From Asaia bogorensis (GTDB lineage Bacteria; Pseudomonadota; Alphaproteobacteria; Acetobacterales; Acetobacteraceae), in contig CAMBXJ010000031.1 of assembly GCA_945871455.1 (NCBI GenBank), forward strand, positions 1 through 17,319: a stretch of DNA of 17,319 nucleotides, read 5' to 3'. Shown piece by piece: positions 2,665-17,319 of this stretch (positions within the stretch are counted from its first letter, which is position 1; every line of letters starts with the position of its first letter). A model generated the notes under the pieces. That model saw nothing but the letters and a program-made list of their open reading frames with translations. It did not search any database and had not been told where the DNA came from. The translations under genes were made by a program, and so were the position numbers.

Positions 2665-3366
2665 ATGGACGTGCCCCCGCCCGAGTTGATCGCCCTGCCA
2701 TCCGGGTCCGCCCGCGTCGAATGGCGCCGCAGCGCGCGCGCTCGGCGGATCAGCCTGCGGATCGATCCGTCCGACGGCGCAATCGTCGTCACCCTGCCGC
2801 CCCGCGCCAGCCGCCGCGCCGGGCTTGTTTTGCTGACGCACCATGTGGACTGGGTGTCGGAGCGTATCGCCGCCCTGCCACGCCAGGTCGCTTTCGCCGA
2901 TGGCGCCGAGGTCCCGGTCTCCGGCGTCCCCCACCGCATCCGCCACCGCCCGGACGCGCATGGTGGCGCCTGGCTGGCGGACGGGGAATTGCACGTCACC
3001 GGCGCGCCCGAATTTCTGCCTCGGCGGGTTGGCGACTTCCTGCGCGCGGAGGCAAAGCGCCGGCTGGCGGAGATGGTGGCGGCGAAGACGCAAGCCGCCG
3101 GGGTGGCGGCCAGGCGCGTGACCGTGAAGGACACCAGCAGCCGCTGGGGAAGCTGCGCGCCGGACCGGTCTCTGGCCTTCAGTTGGCGGCTGATCTTCAC
3201 GCCGGATTTCGTGCAGGACTACGTGGCGGCGCATGAGGTCGCGCATCTGCGGCATATGAATCACGGCCCGCTGTTCTGGGCGCTGGTCGAGCAACTGACC
3301 CCGCACCGCCCCACCGCCGTCCCCTGGCTTCGCAAGAACGGAGCCGCGTTGTTGCGGATCGGTTGA
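2665..3366 (+). CDS. YgjP/DUF45-type zinc metallopeptidase
   Basis: This 233-aa cytosolic protein matches the YgjP-like (PF01863, SprT-related) family in length and motifs. An N-terminal basic stretch (RRSARARRISLRI, 21-33) is followed by the family signature SRWGSC (159-164) and the zinc site HEVAH (190-194), with a third ligand probably H200 in MNHGPLFW. H190 and H194 bind zinc and E191 is the catalytic base, by family knowledge. The physiological substrate of YgjP proteins is not well defined. The ATG at 2665 was chosen because family similarity begins right after it. The frame stays open upstream to a TTG at 2461, but that extension has no recognisable domain. The ribosome binding site is weak. 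The gene looks monocistronic, with a terminator-like hairpin at its 3' end. Confidence 0.85.
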   Translation: MDVPPPELIALPSGSARVEWRRSARARRISLRIDPSDGAIVVTLPPRASRRAGLVLLTHHVDWVSERIAALPRQVAFADGAEVPVSGVPHRIRHRPDAHGGAWLADGELHVTGAPEFLPRRVGDFLRAEAKRRLAEMVAAKTQAAGVAARRVTVKDTSSRWGSCAPDRSLAFSWRLIFTPDFVQDYVAAHEVAHLRHMNHGPLFWALVEQLTPHRPTAVPWLRKNGAALLRIG

Positions 3367-3396
3367 TACGTTCGGTGAACGCGGCGGCTCTTTTTT
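3341..3396 (+). terminator. Likely terminator of the metallopeptidase gene
   Basis: GAGCCGC (3341-3347, inside the end of the coding region) can pair with GCGGCTC (3384-3390), directly followed by TTTTTT (3391-3396). An inner hairpin, CGTTC (3369-3373) with GAACG (3377-3381), sits in the loop. The six-T run after a GC-rich arm is the strongest part of the evidence. Confidence 0.5.
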
Positions 3397-3474
3397 CTCC
3401 GGCCTTTACCTGTTGGAAGATTGGCTTCAGCCCGAGGCTCCATGGAAGCCACCGGCGGTCCTGATCCATTAGCC

Positions 3475-3625
3475 CTGCTTCGTGTCTTCGTGTCTTCGTG
3501 GTGAGAATCGCGGCGCCGCGGTTCGTTGTGTCCCGAACCGATGGGCATCTCCCGGACAGGCAAGGCGTCCTGGTTTCGCTCCGCGATTCTCCACCACGAA
3601 GACACGAAGGGCACGAAGAAGGCAG
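3475..3625. repeat. Inverted-repeat element with CACGAAG signature (REP/MITE-like)
   Basis: The left arm (3486-3513) reads CTTCGTGTCTTCGTGGTG then AGAATCGCGG. The right arm (3581-3609) is its reverse complement apart from one extra base, giving about 28 paired bases around a 67-bp centre. The similarity extends less perfectly outward to about 3475 and 3625, where more CTTCGTG/CACGAAG units occur. The centre holds a smaller hairpin, CGGTTCG (3519-3525) with CGAACCG (3534-3540). CACGAAG-type repeats are widely scattered non-coding elements in bacterial genomes and are often mis-called as small proteins. No transposase is nearby, so mobilisation would have to be in trans. Confidence 0.75.
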
Positions 3626-4671
3626 GTTGCGGCAGCGCCACCGGCGAAGTGGGTCGCCATCCAGACCGCAGCCTCGCACGCTCCACTCCGACCCTTGCCC
3701 CAAGCCGCTTTGGGGCGGCGTGCCCTGGTGCAAGGCGCCCGCGGCGAAGGGGGGTATCATTCACTGCCTCGGTTTGCGGTTTGGGGGGCGACCGAGTGGA
3801 AATGCTGCGTGGAAGGGCAGGTTGCGCAAAAGGCGTGCAGACGCGGGCAAATGTTTAACGGCGGGAAAACGCAACGATACCCCCCGAATTACGCATTGTA
3901 TCGTAACGAATACCCGCCATTTCCGCGCCAGATCGGAACGATTTGCGAAATCCTCGCACTTAAAGTGGAATCTTAAGTCCACCAGAAATACGCAACCAAA
4001 ACAGTGCCGTGTGACGCGATTTTAAGTCCAGATCTCAGGATTCGCGAAATCGGCCAAAACCCCCTGACGGCCAATATTATTCCTGAGACGATTTTGTTAA
4101 CCATTGCCGATTCCTTGGGCAAACCGCCCCGTCGGCCGTGGCCGGACACCAGAAACCCGCGCGAAACCGCGAGAAATCGCATTTCGCTTGCCGCCGCTCG
4201 GCCGCTCATGACAGAACGGAATATGAACGCCAACGCCTCCTTGCATGCTTCGATCCGCGGTTTCCGTCGCGTTTGTCGCCGAGCGGCGCCCGTTTCATGC
4301 CCGCCGGAATGGGCTGGCTGGCATGAATCGCACACGCAGAGTCGAAAATCGTGCCCTGGCGACCGCGCCACGCCGCGCGATCGGGCGGTCAGGCGTGCAA
4401 GCACCCGGTCGGCCGGCACAGGACCGCGATGCGGCGGCCTGGTCGTGGCGGTAAGCGTTCGGTCCCGATGGGCGCCAGCCCGGATTGTGCCCAGGGGCCG
4501 TCTGGGGTACCCGCCCGGTCGCGACATCGGCGAACACGATGGCATATCGCCGCGTCGGAACACCGGCACGCGCAACCTGCCGGCCGGGTCGGCGGGCCTT
4601 CGGGATCAGCGTCATCCCCCGGTAGCATTCCAGCCCGTTTCGCGACATAACGGCGCCAAGGAGTGCCCCCT
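3626..4671. other. Long intergenic region without a convincing gene
   Basis: Roughly 1 kb lies between the repeat element and the DAHP synthase start. Open frames exist on both strands, but they are Arg/Pro-rich, lack domains and have no good ribosome binding sites. A short hairpin, GCCCCAA (3697-3703) with TTGGGGC (3710-3716), lacks a T-run. The segment 3841-4080 is about 49% GC by hand count, clearly below its surroundings, and holds several small palindromes listed separately. The stretch 4190-4650 is GC-rich and nothing functional could be recognised there. The DAHP synthase promoter should lie in this region. Confidence 0.5.
3940..4051. promoter_or_regulatory. Paired near-palindromes, possible operators
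   Basis: GATTTGCGAAATC (3940-3952) and GATTCGCGAAATC (4039-4051) differ at one base, are near-palindromic and start 99 bp apart. Between them, TTAAGTCCA occurs twice (3973-3981 and 4022-4030), and ACTTAA/TTAAGT flanks 3959-3978 as a short inverted repeat. The pattern resembles a regulator-binding array in a lower-GC leader. The regulator is unknown. Confidence 0.3.
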
Positions 4672-6066
4672 ATGACGACAACATCCCAAGCGCGCTGGAC
4701 CCCCGACTCATGGCGCGCCTGCCCCATCCGCCAGGTCCCCAGCTATCCCGACCAGGCCAAGCTCGAAGAGATGGAGCTCCGGCTTGGCAAGTATCCGCCT
4801 CTGGTGTTCGCCGGAGAGGCGCGCCGGCTGAAGGCGTATCTCGCCCAGGCGTCGGAAGGGAAAGCCTTCGTCCTGCAAGGCGGCGATTGCGCCGAGAGCT
4901 TTGCCGACTTCACCGCGAACATCATCCGTGACACGTTCCGCGTGCTGTTGCAGATGGCGGTGGTGCTGACCTTCGGTGCGTCCCTGCCGGTGGTGAAGAT
5001 GGGCCGCATGGCGGGGCAGTTCGCCAAGCCGCGGTCATCCGACAACGAAACCGTGGGCGATGTCACCCTGCCCAGCTATCGCGGCGACATCATCAACGGG
5101 CCGGAATTCACCTCGGACGCCCGCATTCCGGACCCGAAGCGGATGGAATTCGCCTATTTCCAGTCGGCCAGCACGCTCAATCTGCTGCGGGCGTTTGCCT
5201 CGGGCGGCTATGCGGATCTGCATGAGGTGCATCGGTGGAATCTCGGCTTCGTGGAGCGTTCCCCGTTGGCCGACCGCTATCAGGACCTGGCGCACCGCAT
5301 CGACGAAACGCTGTCCTTCATGACGGCATGCGGCATGACCAGCGCCACCACCCGCGATCTGCGGGAGACCGACTTCTATATAAGTCATGAGGCGCTGCTG
5401 CTGCCGTACGAGCAGGCTCTGGCGCGAGTCGATTCCACCAGCGGCGACTGGTATGGCTGTTCGGCGCATTTCCTGTGGATCGGCGACCGCACGCGCCAGG
5501 CGGACGGGGCACATGTGGAATTCTTGCGCGGCGTGAAGAACCCGCTGGGCATGAAGGTCGGCCCGACGCAGGAACCCGACGATCTGCTGCGCCTGCTGGA
5601 TATCCTGAACCCGACGAATGAGGCCGGGCGCATCACCCTGATCAGCCGCATGGGGGCCGACAAGGTCGGTGCCCGCCTGCCCGGGTTGATCCGCGCGGTG
5701 GAGCGCGCCGGTCACAAGGTCGTGTGGCTGTGCGATCCGATGCACGGCAACACCATCACCACCGGGGACAAGCTGAAAACCCGCAATTTCGACGCCATCC
5801 TGCGGGAAGTGCGCGGCTTCTTCGACGTGCACGCGGCGGAGAACACCTGGGCCGGCGGCGTTCACGTCGAAATGACCGGCCAGGACGTCACCGAATGCAC
5901 CGGCGGCGCGCATGAACTCGGTGAATCCGACCTTGCCGCGCGTTACGAGACCTTCTGCGATCCGCGGTTGAATGCGGAACAATCCCTGGAACTGGCGTTC
6001 CTGGTGGCGGAGGAATTGAAACAGCGGCGGTCTCCGGCCGTGCAGCCGGCGCTCGCGGCGCAATAG
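4672..6066 (+). CDS. aroG: Class II 3-deoxy-7-phosphoheptulonate (DAHP) synthase
   Basis: This 464-aa cytosolic enzyme condenses phosphoenolpyruvate and erythrose 4-phosphate to DAHP, the first step of the shikimate pathway to aromatic amino acids. It is the plant/mycobacterial class II type, of normal length. Visible family residues are metal ligands C73 (GGDCAE), H358 (DPMHGNT), E400 (HVEMTG) and D430 (CDPRLN), and substrate-site blocks [14 protein letters not shown] (109-122), GDRTR (271-275) and MKVGPT (294-299). The start is the ATG at 4672, with AAGGAG at 4658-4663 and 8-nt spacing; the GTG at 4663 lies inside that site. The stop is 4 nt before pncB, so the two are probably co-transcribed. 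The symbol aroG follows mycobacterial class II usage; other symbols are used elsewhere. Confidence 0.97.
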
Positions 6067-6070
6067 CGGG

Positions 6071-7282
6071 ATGACGGAAAGCGGCGACGATGTGGGCGCG
6101 GTGTCGGATCTGACGGGTGGAAGCCCGGCGGGTGGAGGTCTGGCGGGTTTGGGGGCGGATATCGCCGCCAGGACCGACAGCTACTTCAACCGCACCAAGC
6201 GCATCGTCGCGCGTTTCGGCGACAAGCAGGTCATCTACACCATCTTTCTGCGCCGCCCGGTCATCTCCGCCCCTCGGTTGATGCTGGACTGGCTGCGGCT
6301 GGTGGCGCGGGAACGTGGGGTGGCGATCGGCATCGACCTGATCTACCGGGAAGGCGACTGGGTCGGCGCCGGGGAGCCGATCGTTTATCTGACCGGCAGC
6401 ATGGTCCAATTGTCGGACCTTGAGACGATCCTGTTGCAGAAACTCGGTGCGGCATGCGTGGCGGCCCACAACGCCTATCAAATGAGCCTGGCCCTGCCGA
6501 ATGTCGCCTTCCTGGCGATGGACGCGCGCCACTGCGCCGGGGCGGAAATGCAGGACATGATGGCCTATGCGGCATCTGTCGGCAGTTCGGCGGCGCAGCA
6601 TGAGGGCGCGAAAGGCTTCGTCGGCAACGCCAATGACGGCACCGCGCACTGGTTCGGCACCGGACGCGGCATGGGGACGATGCCGCATTCGCTGATCGGC
6701 TATGCCGGATCGACGGTGCGCGCGGCGGAAATGTTCCGCGAAACCTTCCCCGAGGAGCCGATCACCGTCCTGGTGGATTATTTCGGCCAGGAGATCACCG
6801 ACGCGATCGCGGTGTGCCGGCGTTTCCCCGATCTGGCGGCGGCGGGGATGCTGTCGTTCCGGTTGGACACCCATGGCGGGCGGTTCCTGGAAGGGCTCGA
6901 TCCCGCGGAAAGCTATGCGGTGCTGGATCGGCGCGCCCCCGGGGCGATCCGGCGCTATCGCAGCGAAACGGAATTGCGCTACCTGGTCGGCACCGGTGTG
7001 TCCGCCGCCGCCATCTGGTTCACCCGGGAAGCGTTGGACAAGGCGGGGTTCCCGAATGCGCGGATCGTGGCCTCGTCCGGGTTCGGTGTGGACAAGTGCC
7101 GGGTGATGGCGGATGCAAAAGCGCCGATCGACGTGGTCGGCACCGGCAGTTTCATCCCCGATTCCTGGCACGAAACCTACGCCACCGCCGATATCGTCGA
7201 ATATGACGGCACGCCGATGGTGAAGGTCGGACGGGAATTCCTGCTGCGCAAGAACGGCGCGCGCAAGAAAGCCGGGAGCTGA
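6071..7282 (+). CDS. pncB: Nicotinate phosphoribosyltransferase
   Basis: This 403-aa cytosolic enzyme of the NAPRTase family converts nicotinate and PRPP to nicotinate mononucleotide in NAD salvage, with coupled ATP hydrolysis in the family. Motifs seen are TDSYFNRTK (35-43) near the N-terminus, GTMPHSLIG (202-210) with H206 as the expected phosphorylated histidine, SFRLDTHGG (262-270) and VVGTGSFIP (355-363). The N-terminal 30 residues are Gly/Ala-rich and unlike the rest, so a later start is possible, though no better ribosome binding site was seen. The ATG at 6071 comes 4 nt after the DAHP synthase stop, implying an operon or translational coupling. PRPP and shikimate-pathway demand could be linked this way, but that is inference. 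Confidence 0.92.
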   Translation: MTESGDDVGAVSDLTGGSPAGGGLAGLGADIAARTDSYFNRTKRIVARFGDKQVIYTIFLRRPVISAPRLMLDWLRLVARERGVAIGIDLIYREGDWVGAGEPIVYLTGSMVQLSDLETILLQKLGAACVAAHNAYQMSLALPNVAFLAMDARHCAGAEMQDMMAYAASVGSSAAQHEGAKGFVGNANDGTAHWFGTGRGMGTMPHSLIGYAGSTVRAAEMFRETFPEEPITVLVDYFGQEITDAIAVCRRFPDLAAAGMLSFRLDTHGGRFLEGLDPAESYAVLDRRAPGAIRRYRSETELRYLVGTGVSAAAIWFTREALDKAGFPNARIVASSGFGVDKCRVMADAKAPIDVVGTGSFIPDSWHETYATADIVEYDGTPMVKVGREFLLRKNGARKKAGS

Positions 7283-7371
7283 TCCGGGTTGATCCATGTC
7301 ATGCACGGTGCCGTGATCGATGACTAGTCTGGGTTTTGACTGCAACCGGACCATGGCAAGCGGACGAAGAG

Positions 7372-7671
7372 ATGAAACTGCAGGACCTCGAACGGGTAAA
7401 TCACCTTGTGTCGGAACTCGCCGACATCAAATCCTTGATCGACATGGCGCAACGGGCCGAACCGATGGCATTTCAGTTGTTTATAGAGGCACCCGGGGAT
7501 GCCAGCCTGCGCATGTCGATGGAAGGCGCCAGCACGACGCATTCGCGCGGGATCAATACCTCGACCGGGTTCCTGGACAGCCTCAAGCTGCTGGCGGTCG
7601 AGGAACTCCAGGCGCACAAGCAACAGGTGCTGTCCGAACTCATTGCGCTGGGCGTCGATCCGGAGGCGTGA
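7372..7671 (+). CDS. Hypothetical protein, 99 aa
   Basis: This small, mildly acidic, cytosolic protein is not recognised. Residues 1-30 (DLERVNHLVSELADIKSLID) and 65-95 (FLDSLKLLAVEELQAHKQQV) look amphipathic and helical. Between them lies a polar Ser/Thr/Gly-rich middle, suggesting a helical hairpin or oligomeric small protein. The ATG at 7372 was chosen. GAAG lies just 5' of it but close (about 3 nt), and a TTG at 7336 in the same frame is possible. It follows pncB by 89 nt. A hairpin in that gap (arms 7298-7308 and 7311-7324, with an internal bulge) has no T-run, so read-through from pncB is possible. It is convergent with the pyruvate-kinase-like gene. Confidence 0.65.
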   Translation: MKLQDLERVNHLVSELADIKSLIDMAQRAEPMAFQLFIEAPGDASLRMSMEGASTTHSRGINTSTGFLDSLKLLAVEELQAHKQQVLSELIALGVDPEA

Positions 7672-7731
7672 TCCCCGGCCGATCGCGAAACGGCATAACG
7701 ACCGCCGGGCAGCCCACCCGTGCTACCCGGT

Positions 7732-9225
7732 TCAGGGGGGCGCCAGGGCAAGCTCTGACAGCGGCCAGGAATGCAGGGGGCCAAGCCGAGCGGTGTTCTT
7801 GGCGTGGTGTCGATCCATGCGGAGGAGGATGTCGGCGAGGAAACGGATCCCCTCGGGCAGGAATGGGCCTTTGTTCAGCATCACGCACTCCGCCCTCTGC
7901 GCCATCGCCGCATCCGTCGCCTCCGCTCGGCTTGGCATGCCGTCGCTGACAAGACTGTCCAATACTTGCGTGGCCCAAATCACAGGCACATGCGCGGCCT
8001 CGCACAGCCACATGATTTCTTCCTGGATTTCGGACAGCCGGGCGAAGCCGATCTCCACCGCCAGGTCCCCGCGGGCGATCATGACCGCGACCGGCCCGGT
8101 GGCGATCCCCTGGATGATCAGCCTGGGTAGGTTCCGCACCGCGAGCGGGGTCTCGATCTTCATAACGATCGGCAGCGGCTTTTCCCGCGTGTTCCGTTTC
8201 GCCAGTTCATCGCGAAGAAGGCGCAGGTCTTCGGGTCGTTGCACAAACGAAAATCCGACGACGTCGGCGATGGAAGCGATGATGTCGAGGTCTGCGTGGT
8301 CCTTGGGTGTCAGCGGTGCCAGATGCAGTTCCGTGTCCGGGAAGTTCACGCCTTTTTCCGGACGCAGGCGCTCTCCCTTGGTTCGGGCGCTGAACACGTC
8401 CAGTTCCACGCGTCCGCCGCCGGTCGATATCACGCGAGAGCCGATCTTGCCGTCGTTGATCCATACAGTGTGGCCGGTTTGCAGGCTGGCCAGGATGTCG
8501 GGAAAGGTGATGGTCGCGATGACCGCGTCGGACGCTTTCGCGGCGGCCATGTCGCGCACCAAGGCGATACGGTCGCCCCGGAACAGGCGGATCTTGTCGA
8601 CGGCGTGCACGGTCTCGATCCGGCATTTCGGGCCGGCGATGTCCATCAGAACCCGGCATTCCACGCCGGCGGCGGTCGCCTCGGCGCGAACCATGTCGGC
8701 CATGGCTTGCCACATCTTGGCGTCGTCATGGGCGCAGTTGATGCGCGCGCAGGTCATCCCCGCCTCGATCAGGGACCGCATCAACGTTTGGTCGGTTGCC
8801 GCTTCGGACGGCAACGTCACCATGATGCGGGTCCGGGCGGCGATCACTTGTGGACCGAAGAAACGGGATTGGGCATCCCGCACGGCCTGTTCCGCGCCGG
8901 CCCGGTCACCGGGGGCAGGATAGCGATGCCCGGAAACCCCGGCGATCCGCGCCAACGTCGCCCCGAGCGCCTGCAACGAACCGAGGACATGGGCTTCGCT
9001 GCGCCCGAGCGTGGAAAGCCCATAATCGGCCAGTGCTGGTTGCAGATCGCTGATATCGTGGTGGCGCAATGCCAGATAGGCGGCGAGGTTGCGCGCCCCC
9101 GGCAGATCCCCCACGCCGCCTGGTTCGCGAGTCCAGCGTTTCAGCGTGTCGCTGGCCTCCTGCTCGACGGATTTGCGCAGATGCTCGATGCGATCCAGCA
9201 TTTCATGGGCGTTGAGACGATTCAT
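7732..9225 (-). CDS. Pyruvate-kinase-like protein, C-domain-less, with N-terminal extension
   Basis: This 497-aa protein has residues 131-470 that match the pyruvate kinase barrel and B domain: RIMVTLPS (133-140), ARINCAH (160-166), MDIAGPKCRI (194-203) for canonical DTKGPEIR, VMKIETP (354-360) with catalytic K356 and E358, MIARGDLAVEI (382-392), ATQVLDSL (418-425) and PSRAEATDAA (431-440). Where canonical enzymes read MLSGETA, this one has MLNKGPF (449-455). The protein ends about 40 residues later, so the C-terminal regulatory domain is absent. About 130 helical residues precede the barrel. The start (complement of 9223-9225) has AAGG 8 nt upstream. Phosphotransfer residues are largely kept, so an enzymatic role on PEP/pyruvate or a related substrate is plausible but unproven. 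It is monocistronic, with a TATAAT and a palindrome upstream. Confidence 0.85.
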   Translation of the reverse strand: MNRLNAHEMLDRIEHLRKSVEQEASDTLKRWTREPGGVGDLPGARNLAAYLALRHHDISDLQPALADYGLSTLGRSEAHVLGSLQALGATLARIAGVSGHRYPAPGDRAGAEQAVRDAQSRFFGPQVIAARTRIMVTLPSEAATDQTLMRSLIEAGMTCARINCAHDDAKMWQAMADMVRAEATAAGVECRVLMDIAGPKCRIETVHAVDKIRLFRGDRIALVRDMAAAKASDAVIATITFPDILASLQTGHTVWINDGKIGSRVISTGGGRVELDVFSARTKGERLRPEKGVNFPDTELHLAPLTPKDHADLDIIASIADVVGFSFVQRPEDLRLLRDELAKRNTREKPLPIVMKIETPLAVRNLPRLIIQGIATGPVAVMIARGDLAVEIGFARLSEIQEEIMWLCEAAHVPVIWATQVLDSLVSDGMPSRAEATDAAMAQRAECVMLNKGPFLPEGIRFLADILLRMDRHHAKNTARLGPLHSWPLSELALAPP

Positions 9226-9261
9226 TATGATGGCCTTGAAGTTCGATGTGTTCGAGCGCGC

Positions 9262-9288
9262 ATGACATGAAAAATACATGTCATTATA
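9262..9288 (-). promoter_or_regulatory. Promoter -10 and palindromic operator for the pyruvate-kinase-like gene
   Basis: On the minus strand TATAAT (complement of 9283-9288) gives a perfect -10. Overlapping its end is a perfect inverted repeat, ATGACATG (9262-9269) with CATGTCAT (9277-9284), separated by an A/T-rich 7 bp. The position over the probable transcription start fits a repressor site. No good -35 hexamer was found. One half-site, CATGTCAT, also occurs at 7295-7302, downstream of pncB. Confidence 0.5.
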
Positions 9289-9678
9289 TTGTAATCAGGC
9301 AATCCCATGCCGAACATTGATCCCGGTCAACGTCGGGTTGCCCAGTGTGGCGTTCAAGGCGTGAACGACAAACGCCACACTTGCGGGTGTCCCCGGTGTG
9401 GTTTGGCGCGCCCAGGGTCGTATAGCGAATGGAGAGCAGAATTGGCGGCACACCAGGGCACGTCGCCGAGCAGCCACGCCAGCATGCGATCCGAGATGGC
9501 CCACAATCACGGTCGGATACGGTGGGACAGGGCCTCCCGCAAGGTCAAGACTGGAATTGACATCTTGTGTATCGCTGCCCCGCGCCGCCTGGCGTCGATT
9601 GCGTCTCCCCGGATGGGTGGCGCATTGTCCGGGCTTCGCTGCGGTACCGTTGCGCGCGACCACGATGGAGTGATGACG
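9289..9678. other. Intergenic region between divergent pyruvate-kinase-like and cytochrome genes
   Basis: The frame of the cytochrome is open back to 9307, but no domain appears before 9679. A minus-strand frame across 9295-9663 has no recognisable domain either. The main visible structure is the hairpin at 9345-9380. TTGACA at 9557-9562 could be a -35 element, but no -10 follows at a proper distance. Confidence 0.4.
9345..9380. repeat. 10-bp perfect inverted repeat (hairpin)
   Basis: GTGTGGCGTT (9345-9354) is the exact reverse complement of AACGCCACAC (9371-9380), with a 16-nt loop. An alternative inner pairing, GTTC/GAAC, is possible. There is no T-run on either side, so it is not a typical intrinsic terminator. 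Confidence 0.5.
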
Positions 9679-10101
9679 ATGGGCAAAGCGGAATTTGTCG
9701 ACTCAACCCACGATGGCCGCGATCCGACAGGTCGGGTCCCCGACCGCCGGCAGGCGCGGGACGCCCGTGCCATTCTCCGTCCCGCCATCGCCGCGGCCGT
9801 CCTGGGCGTGGGCCTGTTGGCATCCTCCCACACCGGGGCACAGACGTTCGGCGATGCGGCGGCGGGACAGGCCCTGGCTCAGCGATGGTGTTCATCCTGC
9901 CACTTGGTCGATGCGGGTCAACCGACTGCCCTGGCCAACGGGGTGCCGACCTTCGCCGGGATCGCACGCATGACATCGACGACGGCGCTGTCGCTGCGCG
10001 TCTTCCTGCAAACCCCCCATATCCGGATGCCGGATTTCAATCTGACCCAGGAAGAGATCGGCGACGTGACGGCCTATATTCTCACTCTGAAAAGACGATA
10101 G
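9679..10101 (+). CDS. Small exported c-type cytochrome
   Basis: This 140-aa class I-like cytochrome c has heme-attachment motif CSSCH (71-75) and probable distal ligand M117 (RMPDF). A hydrophobic export segment, about 31-50 (AILRPAIAAAVLGVGLLASS), ends at a likely signal-peptidase site near TGA-QT (52-56), so the mature protein is periplasmic and about 85 aa. The ATG at 9679 has GGAG at 9667-9670 with 8-nt spacing; an ATG at 9673 is the alternative. The charged region before the hydrophobic core is about 30 residues, unusually long for a Sec signal, and no later in-frame Met precedes the core. The electron-transfer partner is unknown. The neighbours offer no respiratory context. Confidence 0.88.
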   Translation: MGKAEFVDSTHDGRDPTGRVPDRRQARDARAILRPAIAAAVLGVGLLASSHTGAQTFGDAAAGQALAQRWCSSCHLVDAGQPTALANGVPTFAGIARMTSTTALSLRVFLQTPHIRMPDFNLTQEEIGDVTAYILTLKRR

Positions 10102-10236
10102 CCAGCAATGGGATGCACCAGGCTGATGCGTTTGGCGACAAGCCGGATTTCCCCCCTGCGTCCCAACGCCGGCTGATGGGCGGCTGCGATGGACTCGGCC
10201 GCACCCCGGTTCACCATTGCACCGGCTTGCGCTGGA

Positions 10237-11100
10237 CTACTCTGTAACGTGAACCTCGACCGTCATCCCGTGAAAGGCGTCGCTCGCCCCCACGAAGCTG
10301 CCGGCAACCGGCATGACCTGCCCGATACCGCGCGCGACGGCCACCGGGATCAGGTTGGACCCGCCGACGCCGCGGTTCGTCGGATCGAAGGTGATCCAGC
10401 CGGCGCCGGGCACGTAGACCTCGGCCCAGGCATGGGTCGATCCGGCATCGCCGAACGCCACGTTGTCCCGATCCGGATGGTAAAGATAGCCGGACACGAT
10501 CCGCGCCCCGAAGCCCAGGGCGCGGGCCGCTTCGGCGAACAGGACCGCGAAATCGCGACACGATCCCACCCGCCGGTCCAAGGTTTCGATGGGCGATTGG
10601 GTGCCTTCGGTCTCCCGGCTTTGATACGATATCCACGCCGCGACACCGGCGCACAGGTCCTTCAGCAGGGCCAGCGTGTCGGTCGGATTGGCCCGCACAA
10701 AGCCCCGTGCCCAGTTCCCCAACTGTCCGGCCGGGTCCGGGTATTGCTGGACCGTCAATGCGCCAAGGTCGATCCAGTCGGCCTCGGTGTAACGGAAGGG
10801 ATAGACGATGGCGGCGGCGGCGATGGCGAATACCGGCCAGGCAACGGCGTCGAGTTCGATTTCGGCCAGGCTCTCGATCACCAGCGTGTCCGTCATGGTC
10901 TGGAATGTCGCGGTGGCGACGGTGTTGCCGAAAACGTCCTGCGCCCAGGTCAACGTCGAAGGCGGGGTCACCGTCACGTCAATGGAGAGCAGCCGAAGGT
11001 CATGGCTTTCGCGCGGACGCAGCATCAGGCGATGCGCCCCGAGGCTCACCGGTTGCCGGTAACGATAGGTGGTTGCGTGGCGAATCCGGAGCGTGATCAA
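10237..11100 (-). CDS. Transglutaminase-like cysteine protease family protein
   Basis: This 287-aa protein has an N-terminal bacterial transglutaminase-associated domain (about 1-90, RIRHATTYRYRQPVSLGAHRL) followed by a transglutaminase-like core (about 140-245). The catalytic triad is visible as C181 (VGSCRDFA), H223 (STHAWAEVYVP) and D239 (FDPTNR). No signal peptide is seen, so it is probably cytosolic. Family members act as proteases or amidases more often than as cross-linkers, and the substrate is unknown. The start is a TTG (complement of 11098-11100) placed where family similarity begins; it has no clear ribosome binding site, and the next in-frame Met (26) would cut into the conserved domain. 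It is convergent with the cytochrome c gene. Confidence 0.9.
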   Translation of the reverse strand: MITLRIRHATTYRYRQPVSLGAHRLMLRPRESHDLRLLSIDVTVTPPSTLTWAQDVFGNTVATATFQTMTDTLVIESLAEIELDAVAWPVFAIAAAAIVYPFRYTEADWIDLGALTVQQYPDPAGQLGNWARGFVRANPTDTLALLKDLCAGVAAWISYQSRETEGTQSPIETLDRRVGSCRDFAVLFAEAARALGFGARIVSGYLYHPDRDNVAFGDAGSTHAWAEVYVPGAGWITFDPTNRGVGGSNLIPVAVARGIGQVMPVAGSFVGASDAFHGMTVEVHVTE

Positions 11101-11202
11101 CGGTGGCTTGTGTCCGCGGTCATGCCGGATAGGCTAGGGCGGATAGGAGGGGCCTGTCGATCACCGTATCGCGATGGTGTCAGAAGGCGGGGCGCAAGGC
11201 GG

Positions 11203-11231
11203 TTGGTCTCGGACCGAATTCGCTCTACCCT
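11203..11231 (+). promoter_or_regulatory. Possible promoter of the 122-aa protein / GluRS-like unit
   Basis: TTGGTC (11203-11208) and TACCCT (11226-11231) are separated by 17 nt and lie about 40 nt before the start codon at 11274. Both hexamers are only partial matches to sigma-70 consensus. Confidence 0.28.
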
Positions 11232-11273
11232 GTCAGGGATGATGGCACATTTCCTCCCGCGACGGTCCGACCC

Positions 11274-11642
11274 ATGAGCGATCTGTTTGCCCCCGATGGT
11301 GGCTGGCGGGTTCGCATCCTCGATCTGTCGGGCGGCGCCCAGGACAATATCGTGGAGGAGATCGGCGGCTTCCCCACCCTGATGCAGGCCAATGCATTTG
11401 CCCGCTGCTATGTGCGCGATTCCGTGGAACTGTGCCGCGGTCCCGGGATGACCACGAAGGAAGTGCTGGAGGCCTGGTTCGCCTTTGGGGAGGATGCGGA
11501 AGTCGTCGATGCCGGCGAAAGCGGCTGGAAAAGCGCCACCGAACTCGGCGATTTCGTGGACCGTCGGGCCGGCAGGGATGAGCGGAACTGGCGTGCCCTG
11601 GATCCGCGCCGGGACGAGATGGACGACGAGTCCGAGGAATGA
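11274..11642 (+). CDS. Hypothetical acidic protein coupled to the GluRS homologue
   Basis: This 122-aa protein has no recognised domain. Residues 10-60 (GGWRVRILDLSGG, GFPTLMQANAFARCYVRDSVE) could form a small alpha/beta fold, and the last 40 residues are highly charged with an acidic end (EMDDESEE). No signal peptide or membrane segment is seen. The start ATG at 11274 has no good ribosome binding site. Its TGA stop overlaps the ATG of the next gene (ATGA, 11639-11642), so the downstream synthetase homologue is probably translated by coupling. The tight link suggests a joint function or joint regulation, which is inference only. Confidence 0.75.
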   Translation: MSDLFAPDGGWRVRILDLSGGAQDNIVEEIGGFPTLMQANAFARCYVRDSVELCRGPGMTTKEVLEAWFAFGEDAEVVDAGESGWKSATELGDFVDRRAGRDERNWRALDPRRDEMDDESEE

Positions 11643-12997
11643 TCAGGGTCCGGTTCGCCCCGACCCCGTCCGGCCATCTGTTTGTCAGCAGCGCCCGCGT
11701 GGCCCTGGCCAATTTCCTGCACGCGCGCCGGCATGGCGGGCAGATGCTGTTGCGCCTTGACGATCTGGACGCGGAGCGGACGAAGCCGATCTATGCCGAG
11801 TCCATGATGCAGGACCTGCGGTGGTTGGGCATCGCCTGGGACGAATCCATCCGCCAATCCCAACGCATGCCGCTCTATGCCAAGGCGATCGAGCGGTTGA
11901 AGCAGTCCGGTCGGCTGTATCCGTGTTTCGAGTCCGAGGAAGAGTTGCGGGCGAAACAGGACTATCGCCGCAAGCGTGGTCAGCCCACCATCTACGACCG
12001 GGCGATGCTGCAACTGACCCCTGAACAGCGAGCGGCGGCGGAAGCCGGGGGCAAGGTCCCGTATTGGCGGTTTCGCCTGTCCGCGCGGATCCTGGAATGG
12101 CCGGATCTGATCATGGGGAAGCGGCAGGCGAAACTGCCATCGGTGTCCGATCCGGTTCTGGTCCTTGCCGACGGAAGACCGGCGCCGCTGCTGGCGAGCG
12201 TGGTGGACGATATCGACACCGGCATCACCCATATCATTCGTGCCGACGACAACGCCGCCAATACCGGCATCCAGATCGAGCTGTTCGAGGTCCTCGGCGC
12301 CAATGCCAGCCGCCTGACCTTCGCGCATCTGCCGCAGATGACCGACGCGTCGCGGGATGGCGGTTCAGCCGGGACGCGCGGGAAAGCGGGCAGGCGGGTC
12401 GGCAGCCTGTCGTTGCGGAGCCTGCGCGGGGACGGGATCGAGGCGACGGCCCTGGTGACCTACCTGGCGGCGGGCGGTGGCGCTGGGGACCGCGACGCCG
12501 AACCGGCCTTGGAACTGGCCCCGGTGTTCTCTTTGGCTCGATTGGGCAAGGCGAGCGGCGGCTTCGATCCGATCGCGCTGATGGCGATGAACCGCCAGGC
12601 CTTGCGCCGCATGGCGTTCGCCTCGGTGGTCGATCGCCTGCCGAACGGGGCGACGGAAGCGTTCTGGCTCTCGATCAGGGGGAGTTTGGACCTGCTGACC
12701 GAGGCGCGCGGGTGGTGGGACGTCGTGACCGGCACGATCGTGCCGCCGGTGATGGAGAAAGAGCGCGATTTCCTGACCACGGCCGAGACGTTGCTGCCGC
12801 CGGAACCGTGGAATGGCGCGGTCTGGCAGACCTGGATCGATGCGCTGGCCCAGGCGACGGGGCGCGATTTGAACGCGGTCGCCGAGCCATTGCGGCTGGC
12901 GCTGACCGGCGAAGACCACGGACCCGATTTGACGGATCTGCTGCCGCTGATCGGACGCAACCGGACAGCGAACCGGTTGCGGATCGCCGTGTCATGA
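11639..12997 (+). CDS. gltX: Glutamyl-tRNA synthetase homologue with degraded signature motifs
   Basis: This 452-aa class I glutamyl-tRNA synthetase family protein is full length. The Rossmann fold starts with RFAPTPSG (5-12), but the HIGH-type motif reads HLFVSS (13-18) where the family has LHVGN. LRLDDLD (38-44) stands for the usual LRxxDTD. ITHIIRADDNAANT (196-209) stands for ITHVIRGEDHxxNT. The KLSKR loop is replaced by KAGRR (249-253), preceded by an extra 8 or so residues, before a well-kept GSLSLRSLR (255-263). The C-terminal anticodon-binding part (about 290-452) is present. The frame is intact. Family knowledge says HIGH and KMSKS bind ATP and drive adenylation, so activity may be altered or lost. 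A tRNA-Asp or amino-acid-ligase-type side role, or a regulatory paralogue, is possible. It overlaps the preceding gene by 4 nt. Confidence 0.85.
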   Translation: MIRVRFAPTPSGHLFVSSARVALANFLHARRHGGQMLLRLDDLDAERTKPIYAESMMQDLRWLGIAWDESIRQSQRMPLYAKAIERLKQSGRLYPCFESEEELRAKQDYRRKRGQPTIYDRAMLQLTPEQRAAAEAGGKVPYWRFRLSARILEWPDLIMGKRQAKLPSVSDPVLVLADGRPAPLLASVVDDIDTGITHIIRADDNAANTGIQIELFEVLGANASRLTFAHLPQMTDASRDGGSAGTRGKAGRRVGSLSLRSLRGDGIEATALVTYLAAGGGAGDRDAEPALELAPVFSLARLGKASGGFDPIALMAMNRQALRRMAFASVVDRLPNGATEAFWLSIRGSLDLLTEARGWWDVVTGTIVPPVMEKERDFLTTAETLLPPEPWNGAVWQTWIDALAQATGRDLNAVAEPLRLALTGEDHGPDLTDLLPLIGRNRTANRLRIAVS

Positions 12998-13084
12998 TGG
13001 ACCGAGGGCGCCTGCAATCCTGCGCCTGGGGCCGGTCACCGGCTGCCGCGTCCGACCGGCGTGACTGAGGAGGGGATAACAACC

Positions 13085-14248
13085 ATGCAACGCAGCACAG
13101 CTCGCATTCTCACGACCCATACCGGCAGCCTGCCGCGGCCGGCGTCCCTGGTCGAACTCTATGTTCGCAAGGCGCGGGGGGAGGCGGTGGATGCCGAACT
13201 CGCCGCCGCGGCGCACGCGGCGATGCGCGATGTCATCGTTCGGCAGCGTGATGCCGGGATCGATATCGGCAACAACGGGGAGCAGCAGCGCGAGGCGTTC
13301 TTCCTGTATGTCCGCGGGCGCATGAGCGGCTTCGGCGGCTCCTGGACCCGGTTGCCGCGCCAGGATGTGGAGCGCTATCCGGAGTTGAAGGCGGCCCTTG
13401 CCCGCGAACAGGCCAATACGGTGATGGTCAGCGCGCGGGAGCATCTGCCCACCGCGATCGGCGAGGTCCGCTACCTCGATCGTTCGGCCATCGACCAGGA
13501 ATGCGCCGATTTCCGCGCGACCCTGGATGCGATGGGCCAGCCCTTTGTGGAGCCGTTCATGACCGCGCCTTCGCCCGGTATCGTCGCCGCCGCGTTGCGC
13601 AATGATTACTACCCGTCCGAAACGGCGTATCTGGAAGCATTGGGAGAGGCGTTGCGGGTCGAGTATGAGACCATTGTCGGGAATGGCTTCCTGTTGCAGC
13701 TCGATTGCCCGGACCTGGCGATGGAGCGGCATTTTTCCTACCAGGACCGGCCGTTGGCGGATTTCCAGGGTTTCGTGCAGCGTGTGGTGACAACCATCAA
13801 TACGGCGCTGTCGAACATCCCGCGCGACAAGGTGCGGCTGCATGTCTGCTGGGGCAATTACGAGGGGCCGCATGACTGCGACGTGGAATTGCAGGAGATT
13901 TTCCCGATCCTGCAAGGACTGAAGGTCGGCGGTTTTGTGCTGCCCTTCGCCAATCCGCGCCACGCGCACGAATATCGCGTGCTGAAGGAGTTTCCGCTCG
14001 ACAAGGATCAGATCATCGTAGCCGGTGTGATCGATTCCGTGACGAATTTCGTGGAACACCCGGAAACGGTCGCCGAACGGATCGAGCGGGTGGTGGAAGC
14101 GGTCGGCGATGCCAGCCGGGTGCAGGCGGGCACGGATTGCGGGTTCGATACCTCGGCTGGGATGCGCCGGGTGGCATCCGATGTGGTGTGGGCCAAGCTG
14201 GCCGCGTTGAGCGACGGGGCGCGGATTGCTTCGGGGCGGGTTTTCTAG
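13085..14248 (+). CDS. Cobalamin-independent methionine synthase (MetE C-terminal) family protein
   Basis: This 387-aa protein corresponds to the zinc-containing C-terminal barrel of MetE, without the N-terminal half. It begins with TTHTGSLPRP (10-19), typical of the stand-alone family. Zinc ligands are visible as H253 and C255 (LHVCWGN) and C352 (GTDCGF); a fourth acidic ligand lies between them but was not assigned. Members transfer a methyl or alkyl group to a thiol such as homocysteine or coenzyme M, or cleave C-S bonds, so the exact substrate is open. The start ATG at 13085 has GGAGGGG (13069-13075) 9 nt upstream, much better than the in-frame GTG at 13061. It follows the GluRS homologue by 87 nt, and no terminator was seen in the gap. 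Confidence 0.88.
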   Translation: MQRSTARILTTHTGSLPRPASLVELYVRKARGEAVDAELAAAAHAAMRDVIVRQRDAGIDIGNNGEQQREAFFLYVRGRMSGFGGSWTRLPRQDVERYPELKAALAREQANTVMVSAREHLPTAIGEVRYLDRSAIDQECADFRATLDAMGQPFVEPFMTAPSPGIVAAALRNDYYPSETAYLEALGEALRVEYETIVGNGFLLQLDCPDLAMERHFSYQDRPLADFQGFVQRVVTTINTALSNIPRDKVRLHVCWGNYEGPHDCDVELQEIFPILQGLKVGGFVLPFANPRHAHEYRVLKEFPLDKDQIIVAGVIDSVTNFVEHPETVAERIERVVEAVGDASRVQAGTDCGFDTSAGMRRVASDVVWAKLAALSDGARIASGRVF

Positions 14249-14282
14249 TGTTGGTAGTGGATCCCGGTTTCCCGTTCGGCGC

Positions 14283-14318
14283 TTCCCCCGGTTGGGCACA
14301 GTTCTTATAGTCGTTCAA
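14283..14318 (+). promoter_or_regulatory. Possible leaderless promoter of the right-end operon
   Basis: TATAGT (14306-14311) is a good -10 element ending 6 nt before the ATG at 14318, so transcription would start at or next to the start codon. No Shine-Dalgarno sequence precedes this ATG. The -35 position holds only TTCCCC (14283-14288). Read-through from the preceding MetE-like gene is the alternative. Confidence 0.35.
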
Positions 14319-15118
14319 TGTCAAACTCCGACTCCGCCCCCACCACCGTCGAAGCCTCGTTGGAAGCCTGGGAAGCCAGGCTTGCCGAACTCGAACGCCA
14401 GGCGACCGCCGCGCTGAAATCGGCCCGCCGGTTGCGCAAGGCGGCGCAGGAAGGCGCCGTGTCGACCTTCCCGGCCGCGTCCGATGCCATGCGCCAGGAC
14501 GCGGTGCGGCTCGCCGATATCGTCGATCGGACCGCGACGCCGCCGGACATTTCGATCGCGACGGCCTTCGAGGACGGGCAGTTCCTGGCCGAACTGGCCA
14601 GTGCCGCCGCCGCCGCCAACGTGACCCTGGTGCAGCGCGACGGGCGGATCACCGCGTTTCCGCTGATCCTTCGCCTGGAAACCCGTTCGCAAGCCGTGCG
14701 CATCGGCCGCAAGCTGGAAAAGCGCATCCGCCCCAGTTTTCTCGCCGCCCAACTGAAAGCGCTGCAAGGCCGGCCTAACCGTTTCAATGCGCGTTCGTTC
14801 CTCGATCGGCTGATCAAGGCCTACACCGCCCTGGCGCCCGACTGGCAGCAACAGCGCGGCGGGGAGGGGCCGTTGCTGGCGCTGGGCGACCTGCATGAGG
14901 TGCTGACGATCCTGCCCGCCGCCGCGGCCGATTATCCGCAGGAGGAGTTCCTGCTGGACCTGCTGCGGCTCGACCGCCAGCCGGACGCCCGCACCGCGCG
15001 CGGGCATCGGTTCGAATTCGGCGGGTCCACCGGCACCAAGGGCGCCAAACGCCTGACCGCCTTCGACGAAACCGGAACGCAGCACGACTACTATGCCATC
15101 CGTTTCCTCTCGGCCTGA
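14318..15118 (+). CDS. Hypothetical coiled-coil protein, first gene of the DUF2791 operon
   Basis: This 266-aa cytosolic protein matches no family I recognise. Residues 12-48 form a strong coiled coil (WEARLAELERQATAALKSAR). A compact central region (about 75-215) includes QRDGRITAFPLILRL (106-120), which looks like a beta-turn-beta unit. The end (230-266) is a probable beta-rich module with a Gly/Thr-rich loop (FGGSTGTKGAKR) and a final HDYYAIRFL. No catalytic motif, signal peptide or membrane segment is visible. The ATG at 14318 lacks a Shine-Dalgarno sequence. The next gene starts 18 nt after its stop. By position it is likely a structural, adaptor or DNA-contacting partner of the two P-loop-family proteins that follow, which is inference. 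Confidence 0.85.
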   Translation: MSNSDSAPTTVEASLEAWEARLAELERQATAALKSARRLRKAAQEGAVSTFPAASDAMRQDAVRLADIVDRTATPPDISIATAFEDGQFLAELASAAAAANVTLVQRDGRITAFPLILRLETRSQAVRIGRKLEKRIRPSFLAAQLKALQGRPNRFNARSFLDRLIKAYTALAPDWQQQRGGEGPLLALGDLHEVLTILPAAAADYPQEEFLLDLLRLDRQPDARTARGHRFEFGGSTGTKGAKRLTAFDETGTQHDYYAIRFLSA

Positions 15119-15136
15119 TCCGATGGAGGCGCGCCA

Positions 15137-16108
15137 ATGGAAACGATAGACAGTCCGGCGCTGCCATTGGAACAATGGATCGGGGTGATGGAACGCGAGT
15201 ATCTCCACGCGTTCCTGCCCGCCGGTGGCGCCGCGGTGAAGTTCGTGATCGCCGGAGAGGACACCGCCGAAACCCTTTTACACGCCATTGCCGGGGTCGC
15301 CGGCCGCCACGGCATGATCGCGGCCCGGATCAACGCCGGCGACACCCGCCTGCATATGCTGCAGGAGATATTCTTCGCGTTGGCCCGCGTGCTGCCCTGG
15401 GACGACCTCGTCCGCCGCTATGTCGAGGAATTGTTCGCACGCAACGACTACCCGTGGCCGGAACCGGGCCAGAAACTGACCATGGCGGAACTGGCGCAGG
15501 AATTCGGCGTGGCGCCCAACCTGTTGACACGTGGCCGCGACCAGTGGCTCAGCCGTGACCTGTGGGACGATCCGCATCTGGCGCGGGATTTCCGGTCCGC
15601 CATGCTGCATCTCTGCCTGGCGCGCCTCGAACCCGACGGGGACAGCAACGTCGCATCGATTTTCCAATGGCTGTGCGGGGAGAAAGTCCTGCTGGGCCAA
15701 CTGCGCCAATTCGACATCGTGTCGCGGATCACCCGCACCAACGCCCGGTCCATGCTGATCTCCGTCTGCCATTGGCTGCGCAAATGCGGGGTCGGCGGCC
15801 TGGTCCTGGCGCTTGATCTGCGACCGGCGATGCGGCCGGGCGGGCGGGCGGGTTCGGCCGCGGACCAGACCGTGCGCTATTCCACCGCCGCGGTGATGGA
15901 TCTCTACGAAGTCCTGCGCGAGCTCATCGACGATATCGAGGGTCTGCCCGGACTGTTCGTCCTGGCACTTGCCGACCAGGCCTTGGTGGCCGGCGACCGG
16001 CGCCGCACCTTGGATACCTATAAGGCGTTGGAAATGCGCATCTGGCCCGATGTTCGCCCCGGCGACCGGCAAAACCCCTTGGCGCCGCTGGTCACGGTCG
16101 GCGCATGA
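15137..16108 (+). CDS. Degenerate P-loop protein related to the BrxC/BrxD (DUF2791) ATPases
   Basis: This 323-aa cytosolic protein follows the BrxC/D-type ATPase plan. VKFVIAGEDTAETLLHAI (34-51) sits where a Walker A would be, but the GxGK[ST] is lost. It is followed by MLQEIFFALARVLPW (74-88). A hydrophobic strand, GLVLALDLRP (221-230), stands at the Walker B position without the usual DE pair. Near the end, AGDRRRTLDTYKALEMRIWP (285-304) resembles the Arg/Tyr block of DUF2791 proteins. ATP hydrolysis by this chain is therefore unlikely, and it may be a regulatory or scaffolding partner of the intact ATPase next door. Start: ATG with GGAGG (15125-15129) at 7-nt spacing. Its TGA overlaps the ATG of the next gene (ATGA). 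The family assignment is by eye and is less certain than for the next gene. Confidence 0.72.
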   Translation: METIDSPALPLEQWIGVMEREYLHAFLPAGGAAVKFVIAGEDTAETLLHAIAGVAGRHGMIAARINAGDTRLHMLQEIFFALARVLPWDDLVRRYVEELFARNDYPWPEPGQKLTMAELAQEFGVAPNLLTRGRDQWLSRDLWDDPHLARDFRSAMLHLCLARLEPDGDSNVASIFQWLCGEKVLLGQLRQFDIVSRITRTNARSMLISVCHWLRKCGVGGLVLALDLRPAMRPGGRAGSAADQTVRYSTAAVMDLYEVLRELIDDIEGLPGLFVLALADQALVAGDRRRTLDTYKALEMRIWPDVRPGDRQNPLAPLVTVGA

Positions 16109-17319
16109 ACCTCGCGGCCCGCATCGCCATCGAGGCCCTTCGTGCCGGCGTCCCCAACCGTTCGGCCATCCGTATGCTCGGTACCGAAGAAGGGGGCATC
16201 GAACAGTCCTTCGACGAATTGCTGCAATCGGTATGGACCGGCTCGCGCCCCGGACTTGGCATCGCTGGCGGCTTCGGCACCGGCAAGTCGCATTTCCTCG
16301 GCTATCTGGGAGAGGTCGCGCGCACCCAGAATTTCGCCGTCAGCCGCGTCGTCATCAGCAAGGAAACGCCGCTTTCCGATCCCGCCCGCGTGCTGGAAGC
16401 GGCCTTGCGTGAGGCGACCCTGCCAGAGCGCAACGACGACCCGATCGGCGCGGCGCTGTCGATCCTGCGCGATTCGCCCGACCGGTTGGACGGGCTGGAA
16501 GACCTGGTCCGCAATCCCGAATTCGGCCTGTCGCCGGTTTTCGGGGCGATCCTGTTCCTGCTGCGGAAGTCGTCGACCTCGCAGGAGACGATGCGCCGGT
16601 TCGAGCGGTTCATCGCCGGGGGGCGGGTCAACGCCACCGTGTTCCGCCAGGCCCTGTCGGCCGCCGGTGCCGCCCGCATGTTCGATCTGCGCATGCCCGC
16701 CTCGGCCAACCTGACCCAGCAGCGCATCCGCTTCGCCTCCCACCTGTTCCAGGCCGCCGGTTTCGCCGGATGGTGCCTGCTGCTGGATGAAGTCGAGTTG
16801 ATCGGCCGCTACACCCCCCTCCAACGCGCCATCGCCTATAGCTGGCTCAGCACCTGGCTCGGCCTTGATCGGACACTTCGGTTTCCGGGCATCGTCACGG
16901 TCTATGCCATCACCGACGATTTCATCAGCGCGGTGGTCGAGCAGCGGGACGACCTGGCCAAACTGCCCGAGCGCCTGCGCCTGAAAGGCCGCGAGAACGA
17001 CGCTGAAACCGCCGTTGAGGCGATCGAGCATATCGAAACCACCGTCCGCATGCATCGGCTGCGCCCGCCCGGATCCGAGGAACTCGACCGGTCCCGCGAA
17101 CGCCTGCGCGGCATCTATGAAGCCGCCTATGACTGGGCCGCGCCACCTCTGCCGCCATCGCCGCGCACCGCCACCCGTACCATGCGTCAGTATATCAAGG
17201 CGTGGATTACCCGCTGGGACATGGACCGCCTGACCGGCACCGAATCCGACATCCATGAGGAACAGGTGACTTCCAACTACGAGGAAAACGAGGGACTTGC
17301 GGCGCCGGCGGCCGACGAA
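16105..17319 (+). CDS. DUF2791 (BrxC/BrxD-like) P-loop ATPase, 3' end outside the window
   Basis: An open frame of 405 codons starts at the ATG at 16105 and has no stop by the window end; the Glu/Ala-rich last residues suggest the C-terminus is near. Motifs: AARIAIEALRAGVPNRSAIR (4-23), Walker A GGFGTGKSH (55-63) with K61, VVISKETPLSDP (90-101), Walker B WCLLLDEVELIGRY (223-236) with D228/E229, a sensor-like VYAITDDF (266-273), and MRQYIKAWITRWDMDRL (360-376). This matches the DUF2791 P-loop family (BREX BrxC/BrxD-like ATP-binding proteins), which in family knowledge occurs in anti-phage and TerB/helicase-associated loci. It is a cytosolic AAA+-type ATPase, likely working on DNA or remodelling partners. 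It overlaps the upstream gene by 4 nt (ATGA), implying coupled translation. Confidence 0.88.
   Translation, partial: MNLAARIAIEALRAGVPNRSAIRMLGTEEGGIEQSFDELLQSVWTGSRPGLGIAGGFGTGKSHFLGYLGEVARTQNFAVSRVVISKETPLSDPARVLEAALREATLPERNDDPIGAALSILRDSPDRLDGLEDLVRNPEFGLSPVFGAILFLLRKSSTSQETMRRFERFIAGGRVNATVFRQALSAAGAARMFDLRMPASANLTQQRIRFASHLFQAAGFAGWCLLLDEVELIGRYTPLQRAIAYSWLSTWLGLDRTLRFPGIVTVYAITDDFISAVVEQRDDLAKLPERLRLKGRENDAETAVEAIEHIETTVRMHRLRPPGSEELDRSRERLRGIYEAAYDWAAPPLPPSPRTATRTMRQYIKAWITRWDMDRLTGTESDIHEEQVTSNYEENEGLAAPAADE

Follow-up and report, generated by a model that had tools for sequence, protein, structure and literature searches.

What do the three adjacent genes at the end of a contig of Asaia bogorensis (CAMBXJ010000031.1) encode, and do they need partners beyond that end? 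The stretch analyzed here, called the window, is one whole contig of 17,319 nt from an 85% complete genome, and its final 3 kb consist of three codirectional open reading frames (ORFs) in the ORF list, g1, g2, and g3. A preliminary description of the window had noted an 18-nt gap between g1 and g2 and a 4-nt overlap (ATGA) between g2 and g3, and this arrangement is correct. The contig ends inside g3, so the genes beyond it were read in the loci of relatives (L-numbers denote loci and G-numbers genomes; G000 is the window's genome and G032 that of a sister species, whose trio locus is L024). The explanation that we place first, with a confidence that falls a little short of even, is that the trio is a self-contained and horizontally mobile accessory cassette encoding a BrxD-type (ORC/Cdc6-like) heteromeric AAA+ machine, which once had a helicase beside it and probably deals with invading DNA.

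A conserved trio with a live and a dead ATPase

The linkage of the three genes exceeds what chance would give and is conserved in Acetobacteraceae and Chloroflexota. A search of 145 relatives with g2 gave 17 matches, and the trio is present in 16 of the 145, since the match in G071 is weak (E 7.6e-4) and has no trio around it. Within the window's genus, 12 of 33 genomes carry the trio. With the g3 profile at E<1e-50, 32 of 397 Acetobacteraceae genomes are positive (three of these strong carriers, G1368, G1395, and G1229, are not among the fetched loci). A class sample of 385 genomes has strong g2 only in the window's genome and in G452, which belongs to another family (3.8e-76), plus six weak partial matches; in a phylum sample of 398 genomes the only strong g3 is the window's own, the next best match being at 7.1e-8. 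Among 350 genomes of Chloroflexota, the phylum of L031, g3 occurs in 14 at E<1e-50 and is preceded by g1 and g2 in all 14. Contig-end cuts and three genes split into two ORFs aside (g1 in L034, g2 in L174, g3 in L026), every fetched trio locus keeps the order g1-g2-g3. Co-occurrence across Acetobacteraceae, which the preliminary description had offered as a check, is thus found, and it extends to a second phylum.

The product of g3 has been rightly described as an intact ATPase of the BrxD type (DUF2791). It is nearly complete, with 405 aa seen versus 410 aa in its L024 homologue (93% identical), and matches PF10923 with 60.2 bits (cut-off 22.2). The PADLOC model for BrxD matches at 8.9e-14 and that for SngB weakly (E 1.2e-3), while the score with the BrxD equivalog NF033438 is 51.4 bits, under its cut-off of 350. 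Both the Walker A (GGFGTGKSH) and the Walker B (LLLDEVELIG) motifs are intact, and Gly55, Phe57, Gly58, Gly60, Lys61, Ser62, Asp228, and Glu229 are invariant in the 17 rows of alignment A3. A sequence search of the PDB returned the P-loop segment of BrxC and of helicase loaders.

Judged by its motifs, g2 is a relative of g3 without P-loop and lid, and would not be an active AAA+ ATPase, which agrees with its earlier description as a P-loop-dead paralogue. Its PF10923 score of 24.0 bits lies narrowly above the curated cut-off (22.2), its NF033438 score is 23.1 bits against 350, and its nearest PADLOC model is BrxD, as it is for g3. Walker A is missing in the window and across the family: the pattern G-x(2-4)-GK[ST] is absent from 19 of 20 trio loci and from 20 of 20 in a second set. 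The aligned g2 proteins, that of L086 included, retain the Walker B Asp, and the residue following it is not Glu. A PDB sequence search with g2 gave only coiled coils and weak unrelated matches; its AlphaFold2 model, with a predicted local distance difference test (pLDDT) score of 89.6, matches solved AAA+ cores and may be nearest to ORC/Cdc6: in the structure comparison ORC2 leads p97 by 1.5 Z, and other ORC rows overlap those of p97. Arg301 is invariant in alignments A2 (17 rows) and A6 (68 rows), and in 19 of 19 trio g2 proteins together with L086 and L088.

Locus L086 (5605-8936, G608) has a weak g1 and two BrxD-like ATPases, both with a P-loop, the first with a non-canonical Walker B. It is an outlying relative, possibly a transitional form hinting at how the dead subunit arose.

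The first gene had been called a coiled-coil protein without known domain. The second half of this statement stands, as neither Pfam nor PADLOC contains a family matching g1 at E<=1, and its sole NCBIfam match is far under the cut-off (13.7 versus 129 bits). The first half needs to be narrowed: in the AlphaFold2 model (mean pLDDT 87.9) a helical hairpin takes up only residues 11-72, and the remainder is a mixed alpha/beta domain. Sequence searches of the PDB with g1 brought up coiled coils and otherwise unrelated proteins at weak scores, and a Foldseek search with the model gave nothing informative. VIA-align matched mainly the hairpin, so that the C-terminal domain was barely tested and is not shown to lack a known fold.

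The helicase that follows g3 in relatives

The preliminary description expected a helicase to follow g3, and in half of the relatives where this can be judged one does. A SNF2-family helicase of ~440 aa lies directly after g3 in L031, L037, L040, and L042, and a related one in a longer frame is found in L054 and in seven Chloroflexota loci (L074-L077, L080-L082). Both helicases that were put to Pfam (L031, L054) contain PF00176 (SNF2). For five helicases compared with PADLOC (L054, L037, L082, L156, L075) the best models are ZorD, DpdE, and DrmD; the 25 matches listed of 39-43 do not include SngC. In total, 21 loci match one SNF2 helicase profile.

To place these states on a phylogeny we added 20 further Acetobacteraceae loci and used a g3 tree of 49 rows, of which 42 are judgeable; contig ends prevent a call in the window, L036, L159, L161, L174, L078, and L084. 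Left out of the tree were L044 and L155 (duplicates of L025 and L028), L086 (on a very long branch), L085 (g3 cut), and L034 and L041 (no usable g3). The 42 loci divide into 21 with the dedicated helicase (cut by the contig end in L165, in two frames in L167), 17 with none, 3 with a stub, and 1 with a different helicase. In the stub loci (L166, L172, L173), an intact trio is followed by an alignable helicase N-terminus of only 28-92 residues and then by other sequence, so that these three are direct examples of loss. In L079, an XPB-like helicase of superfamily 2 (SF2; 8948-10477, PbeA-like in PADLOC) begins directly at the g3 stop and is apparently a substitute for the SNF2 enzyme.

Where the helicase is present, its divergence tracks that of the trio, with r=0.91 for g3 (21 loci), 0.94 for g1 (20), and 0.93 for g2 (21); for each gene, none of 999 permutations was as high, and r is 0.77 inside the 12 Acetobacteraceae loci. 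The g3 tree requires 9 changes of helicase state; bootstrap trees require 8-9, at least 7 fall on starred branches, and the shuffled mean is 14.3. A smaller tree of 32 rows had 4 changes. Because the helicase occurs in both phyla and is co-inherited with the trio, these changes are best read as repeated losses.

The window's own clade has nine rows in the tree, and the helicase is found in none of its eight judgeable loci, including L024, whose trio is 91-93% identical to that of the window. The trio ORFs of this clade are unbroken, except for g3 of L026 and the cut at the end of the window. The downstream genes identified are metabolic, namely 4-hydroxyphenylacetate hydroxylase (L025), alcohol dehydrogenase (L032), and fatty acid hydroxylase (L030), which is the kind of neighbor that the preliminary description had itself set against its proposal. 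The close kin L026, L029, and L030 share their downstream neighbors; outside the clade, L036, L038, and L039 have a common upstream neighbor. Within the bounds set by incomplete genomes, it can be dismissed that the dedicated helicase is encoded away from the trio: of 20 trio genomes, 5 score 568-824 bits with the helicase profile, always at the trio locus, while 15 reach 51-295 bits, most of their top scorers being proteins of 900-1600 open codons. The best SNF2 protein of the window's genome reaches 294 bits.

A further conserved gene, X (170-240 codons open), follows g3 in eight Chloroflexota loci (for example L074:9194-9763 and L075:7396-8025). That of L082 has no Pfam (E<=0.1) or PADLOC match, and L054 has an X-like stretch (46.8 bits) fused to the helicase.

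Selection, mobility, and the rest of the window

Between the window and G032, the ratio of nonsynonymous to synonymous divergence (dN/dS) is 0.118 for g1, 0.129 for g2, and 0.117 for g3, at dS 0.32-0.38. For two flanking genes it is 0.033 and 0.043 at dS 0.30-0.35 (the gene at 13061-14245 was compared over 387 codons). The trio proteins thus evolve three to four times faster than these two neighbors. Since g2 and g3 have similar dN/dS, the dead subunit is as constrained as the live one; since dS is similar in trio and flanks, the trio in both species is about as old as their split. Six pairs of loci without a known helicase have dN/dS of 0.09-0.34 (L159, in one pair, is not judgeable), and the helicase-bearing pair L164/L165 has 0.21-0.28. 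In these few pairs, then, no relaxation is visible after loss of the helicase, and purifying selection on the trio continues in its absence.

The DNA similarity of the unit with L024 is 89.4% over 14269-17318 (blastn). The window gene just upstream (13061-14248) is 91.9% identical to a gene on a different G032 contig, where other sequence follows up to the contig end. The trio therefore sits at different sites in the two genomes, unless a contig of either metagenome-assembled genome is chimeric. Across the genus, G032 aside, the housekeeping enzyme DAHP synthase is 83-88% identical to that of the window, whereas seven genomes have g3 identities of 57-66% and three of 44-45%, and this discordance points to horizontal exchange. 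A phage, plasmid, or viral origin was rejected for want of matches in the respective collections, in which g3 was sought throughout, g1 in plasmids only, and g2 in none. When the trio site of G032 was sought as an empty site in the window's genome, only a dispersed repeat matched. This palindrome-like intergenic element (L024:5694-5887, up to ~170 bp) has 81 matches on many contigs of the window's genome, on both strands, so that many places are counted twice.

The trio had also been credited with a composition of its own. This does not hold, as its G+C content (0.66-0.68) lies inside the range of the remaining window (0.59-0.70). The trio has a negative GC skew and the preceding 4 kb a positive one, but negative skew also occurs elsewhere in the window. 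The features of the unit are listed in Table 1; the GGAGG before g2 is presumably a Shine-Dalgarno-like signal.

Table 1. Coordinates of the trio and its features in the window.
Feature	Position	Strand	Basis
Shared upstream stretch, 49 nt before g1; similarity of the unit with L024 of G032 starts here	14269..14317	+	blastn
g1, 266 aa, N-terminal helical hairpin and alpha/beta C-domain	14318..15118	+	ORF list, AlphaFold2 model
g1 helical hairpin, residues 11-72	14348..14533	+	AlphaFold2 model
GGAGG before g2	15125..15129	+	read in sequence
g2, 323-aa AAA+ pseudo-ATPase without P-loop and C-terminal lid	15137..16108	+	PF10923, AlphaFold2, alignments
g2 residues 39-46, degenerate P-loop position AGEDTAET	15251..15274	+	alignment; L086 has GRPGSGKT here
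g2 Arg301, candidate trans-acting arginine finger	16037..16039	+	invariance; putative role
g3, BrxD-like AAA+ ATPase, ~5 codons short of stop	16105..17319	+	PF10923, PADLOC, L024 homologue
g3 Walker A GGFGTGKS	16267..16290	+	invariant residues, alignment A3
g3 Walker B LLLDEVELIG (Asp228-Glu229)	16777..16806	+	invariant residues, alignment A3

Elsewhere in the window there is a tRNA-Gly (TCC) gene at 187-260 and, at 617-2389, a single ORF in which a FixJ-like response regulator (residues 29-222) precedes a histidine kinase (259-577) resembling blue-light-activated histidine kinase 2, an order of domains that we take to be unusual. An inverted repeat at 3474-3622 has arms of ~42-45 nt that are 89-90% identical and does not resemble the L024 element (threshold E 1e-3).

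Possible function and known systems

In the mechanism that we propose, g3 would be the only subunit to hydrolyze ATP. We suggest that g2 packs against it, because g2 has kept the core fold and the invariant R301 despite the loss of Walker A and of the catalytic Glu; most likely it would complete or regulate the ATP site of g3 in trans through R301. The product of g1 could be a coiled-coil adaptor that connects the two ATPases with DNA or with a partner. Together they would originally have loaded or gated the adjacent SNF2 translocase, much as BrxD has been proposed to act on BrxHI. The window's lineage would no longer have the helicase gene, and the complex would act alone or borrow another helicase. 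The repeated absence of the helicase shows that the trio is useful without it, either by recruiting another helicase or because the ATPase switch would itself be the useful part.

The most likely task would be the recognition and handling of invading DNA. Within this explanation we hold a defense role to be somewhat more probable than its absence, because the nearest PADLOC models are defense ATPases, the distribution is patchy, and two loci have suggestive surroundings: in L074 (Chloroflexota; 1733-15112) the module is flanked by a GmrSD-type protein on one side and ZacA/ZacB of Azaca on the other, a clear defense island, and in L083 there is a hint in the restriction-like protein of the phospholipase D (PLD) type that adjoins the trio. 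Two observations on the defense-island setting weigh on the other side: L074 is the only examined locus in a clear island, and the most frequent flanking Pfam families are dehydrogenases, transporters, and other metabolic enzymes. Of the 172 ORFs selected at 23 loci, the flank scan covered 147, at 20 loci; the ORFs were picked by a rule on G+C at third codon positions (G+C3), so some genes were surely missed, and the island counts had no random-locus control. Among the 25 PADLOC families listed of 57 matched, ZacA and ZacB belong to L074, and the DndA and SspA matches are probably cysteine desulfurases, since SUF genes occur among the same ORFs. Other matches include REase_II (one ORF, 2.1e-22), mad2, mad8, and C3a156, their loci not traced, and the mad3 match in L040 is an SMC-type protein.

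The metabolic flanks speak for the strongest rival, which we nevertheless consider unlikely, namely that the trio is an accessory factor for DNA repair or for transcription-replication conflicts, in which an AAA+ pair, together with a SNF2 remodeler, puts proteins onto host DNA or takes them off, without any role against phages. SNF2 remodelers and ORC-like loaders presumably serve housekeeping DNA work too, and the similar dS speaks for vertical inheritance between G000 and G032. Against it stand the patchy distribution (12 of 33 genomes in the genus, 32 of 397 in the family), the discordant sequence classes inside one genus, protein evolution faster than in two neighbors (dN/dS 0.12 versus 0.03-0.04), and the best-matching PADLOC models, BrxD and, at a weak score, SngB. 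It is less likely again that the trio is a decaying relic, drifting since a former four-gene system lost its helicase. The repeated helicase absence, the stubs, and the genes split in L034, L174, and L026 would suit such decay, which is countered by the low dN/dS in each of the six tested pairs that have no known helicase, the near-complete lack of broken ORFs in the window's clade, and the invariant catalytic residues of g3. We find it scarcely more credible, and if anything a little less so, that the helicase-less trio is a defense system of its own, both sensor and effector: the helicase has been dispensable many times and the surroundings of L074 and L083 agree, but no nuclease or toxin domain was recognised in g1, g2, or g3 (Pfam, PADLOC, NCBIfam), and the island is clear in one locus. 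Least probable of all is that a defense system of the BREX or TerB kind has its left end in the window, with a helicase, nuclease, or methylase just past the contig end, as the preliminary description had it: a helicase follows g3 in 21 of 42 judgeable loci and the contig does end inside g3, but in the window's clade all eight loci that can be judged lack it, the best SNF2 score in its genome is far from those of true members, and PglZ was not found, so the trio need not be the end of anything larger.

Returning to the cassette for a BrxD-type machine, a wider proposal seems to us possible but doubtful: that the trio represents a new family of mobile systems against invaders, in which selection has repeatedly favored a smallest form, the dead/live BrxD-type pair with its coiled-coil adaptor, and to which a SNF2 or XPB-like helicase is an exchangeable add-on; L086 would be transitional, with the P-loop not yet lost from the subunit that later died. 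Whatever the function, the loci seem to present a natural deletion series, with the helicase lost several times and the ATPase trio still under selection, so that three small genes suffice to ask what an ORC-like defense ATPase does on its own. They also offer a series for the origin of AAA+ pseudo-ATPase subunits, from a P-loop in both ATPases to one dead ATPase and then to helicase loss.

We recognised no report of the trio with a SNF2 helicase in the literature covered, a scope that leaves out most subscription papers and preprints. ORC mixes ATPase-active and inactive subunits. The likeness of the trio to the eukaryotic and archaeal ORC-Cdc6 complexes lies in the AAA+ core fold, predicted for g2; in contrast to them, g2 leaves no space for a winged-helix domain, a replication context was not seen, and the partners are others. 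Tandem BrxD-like ATPases occur in L088 (1225-6790) and L087 (6768-10236), where the first gene aligns with g2 along its length and the second is BrxD-like as g3 is, but both genes of L087 and the first of L088 have a P-loop, and there is no g1 match. A DEAD helicase like BrxHI and SngC lies nearby in L088.

Shango (TerB, ATPase, and DEAD/DEAH helicase; PMC10250203) is likewise a small set of a helper, a BrxD-like ATPase, and a helicase. Here, g1 has no TerB or other Pfam domain, the SngB match of g3 is weak, there is an additional dead ATPase, and the helicase of relatives is absent or SNF2; the missing TerB domain excludes the trio from Shango. In bacteriophage exclusion (BREX) type 2, the gene of a BrxD-type ORC/Cdc6 AAA+ ATPase is paired with that of the SF2 helicase BrxHI, which BrxD is proposed to load or activate (PMC12839542). 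The relatives' helicase is SNF2, that of BREX Ski2-like. Membership in BREX, of which the trio had been thought a possible piece, is rejected because PglZ was not found in the window's genome (85% complete); 17 of the 20 trio genomes lack a PglZ match (16 of the 19 others), and in the remaining three PglZ is on contigs other than that of the trio. BrxC, PglX, and BrxL are not among the 25 listed of the 57 PADLOC families matched by the 147 flanking ORFs. What sets the trio apart from the known kind of BrxD-helicase pairing is that it has two BrxD-type proteins, one live and one dead and lid-less, together with a coiled-coil partner, and a SNF2 helicase that was probably there at first and is recurrently absent.

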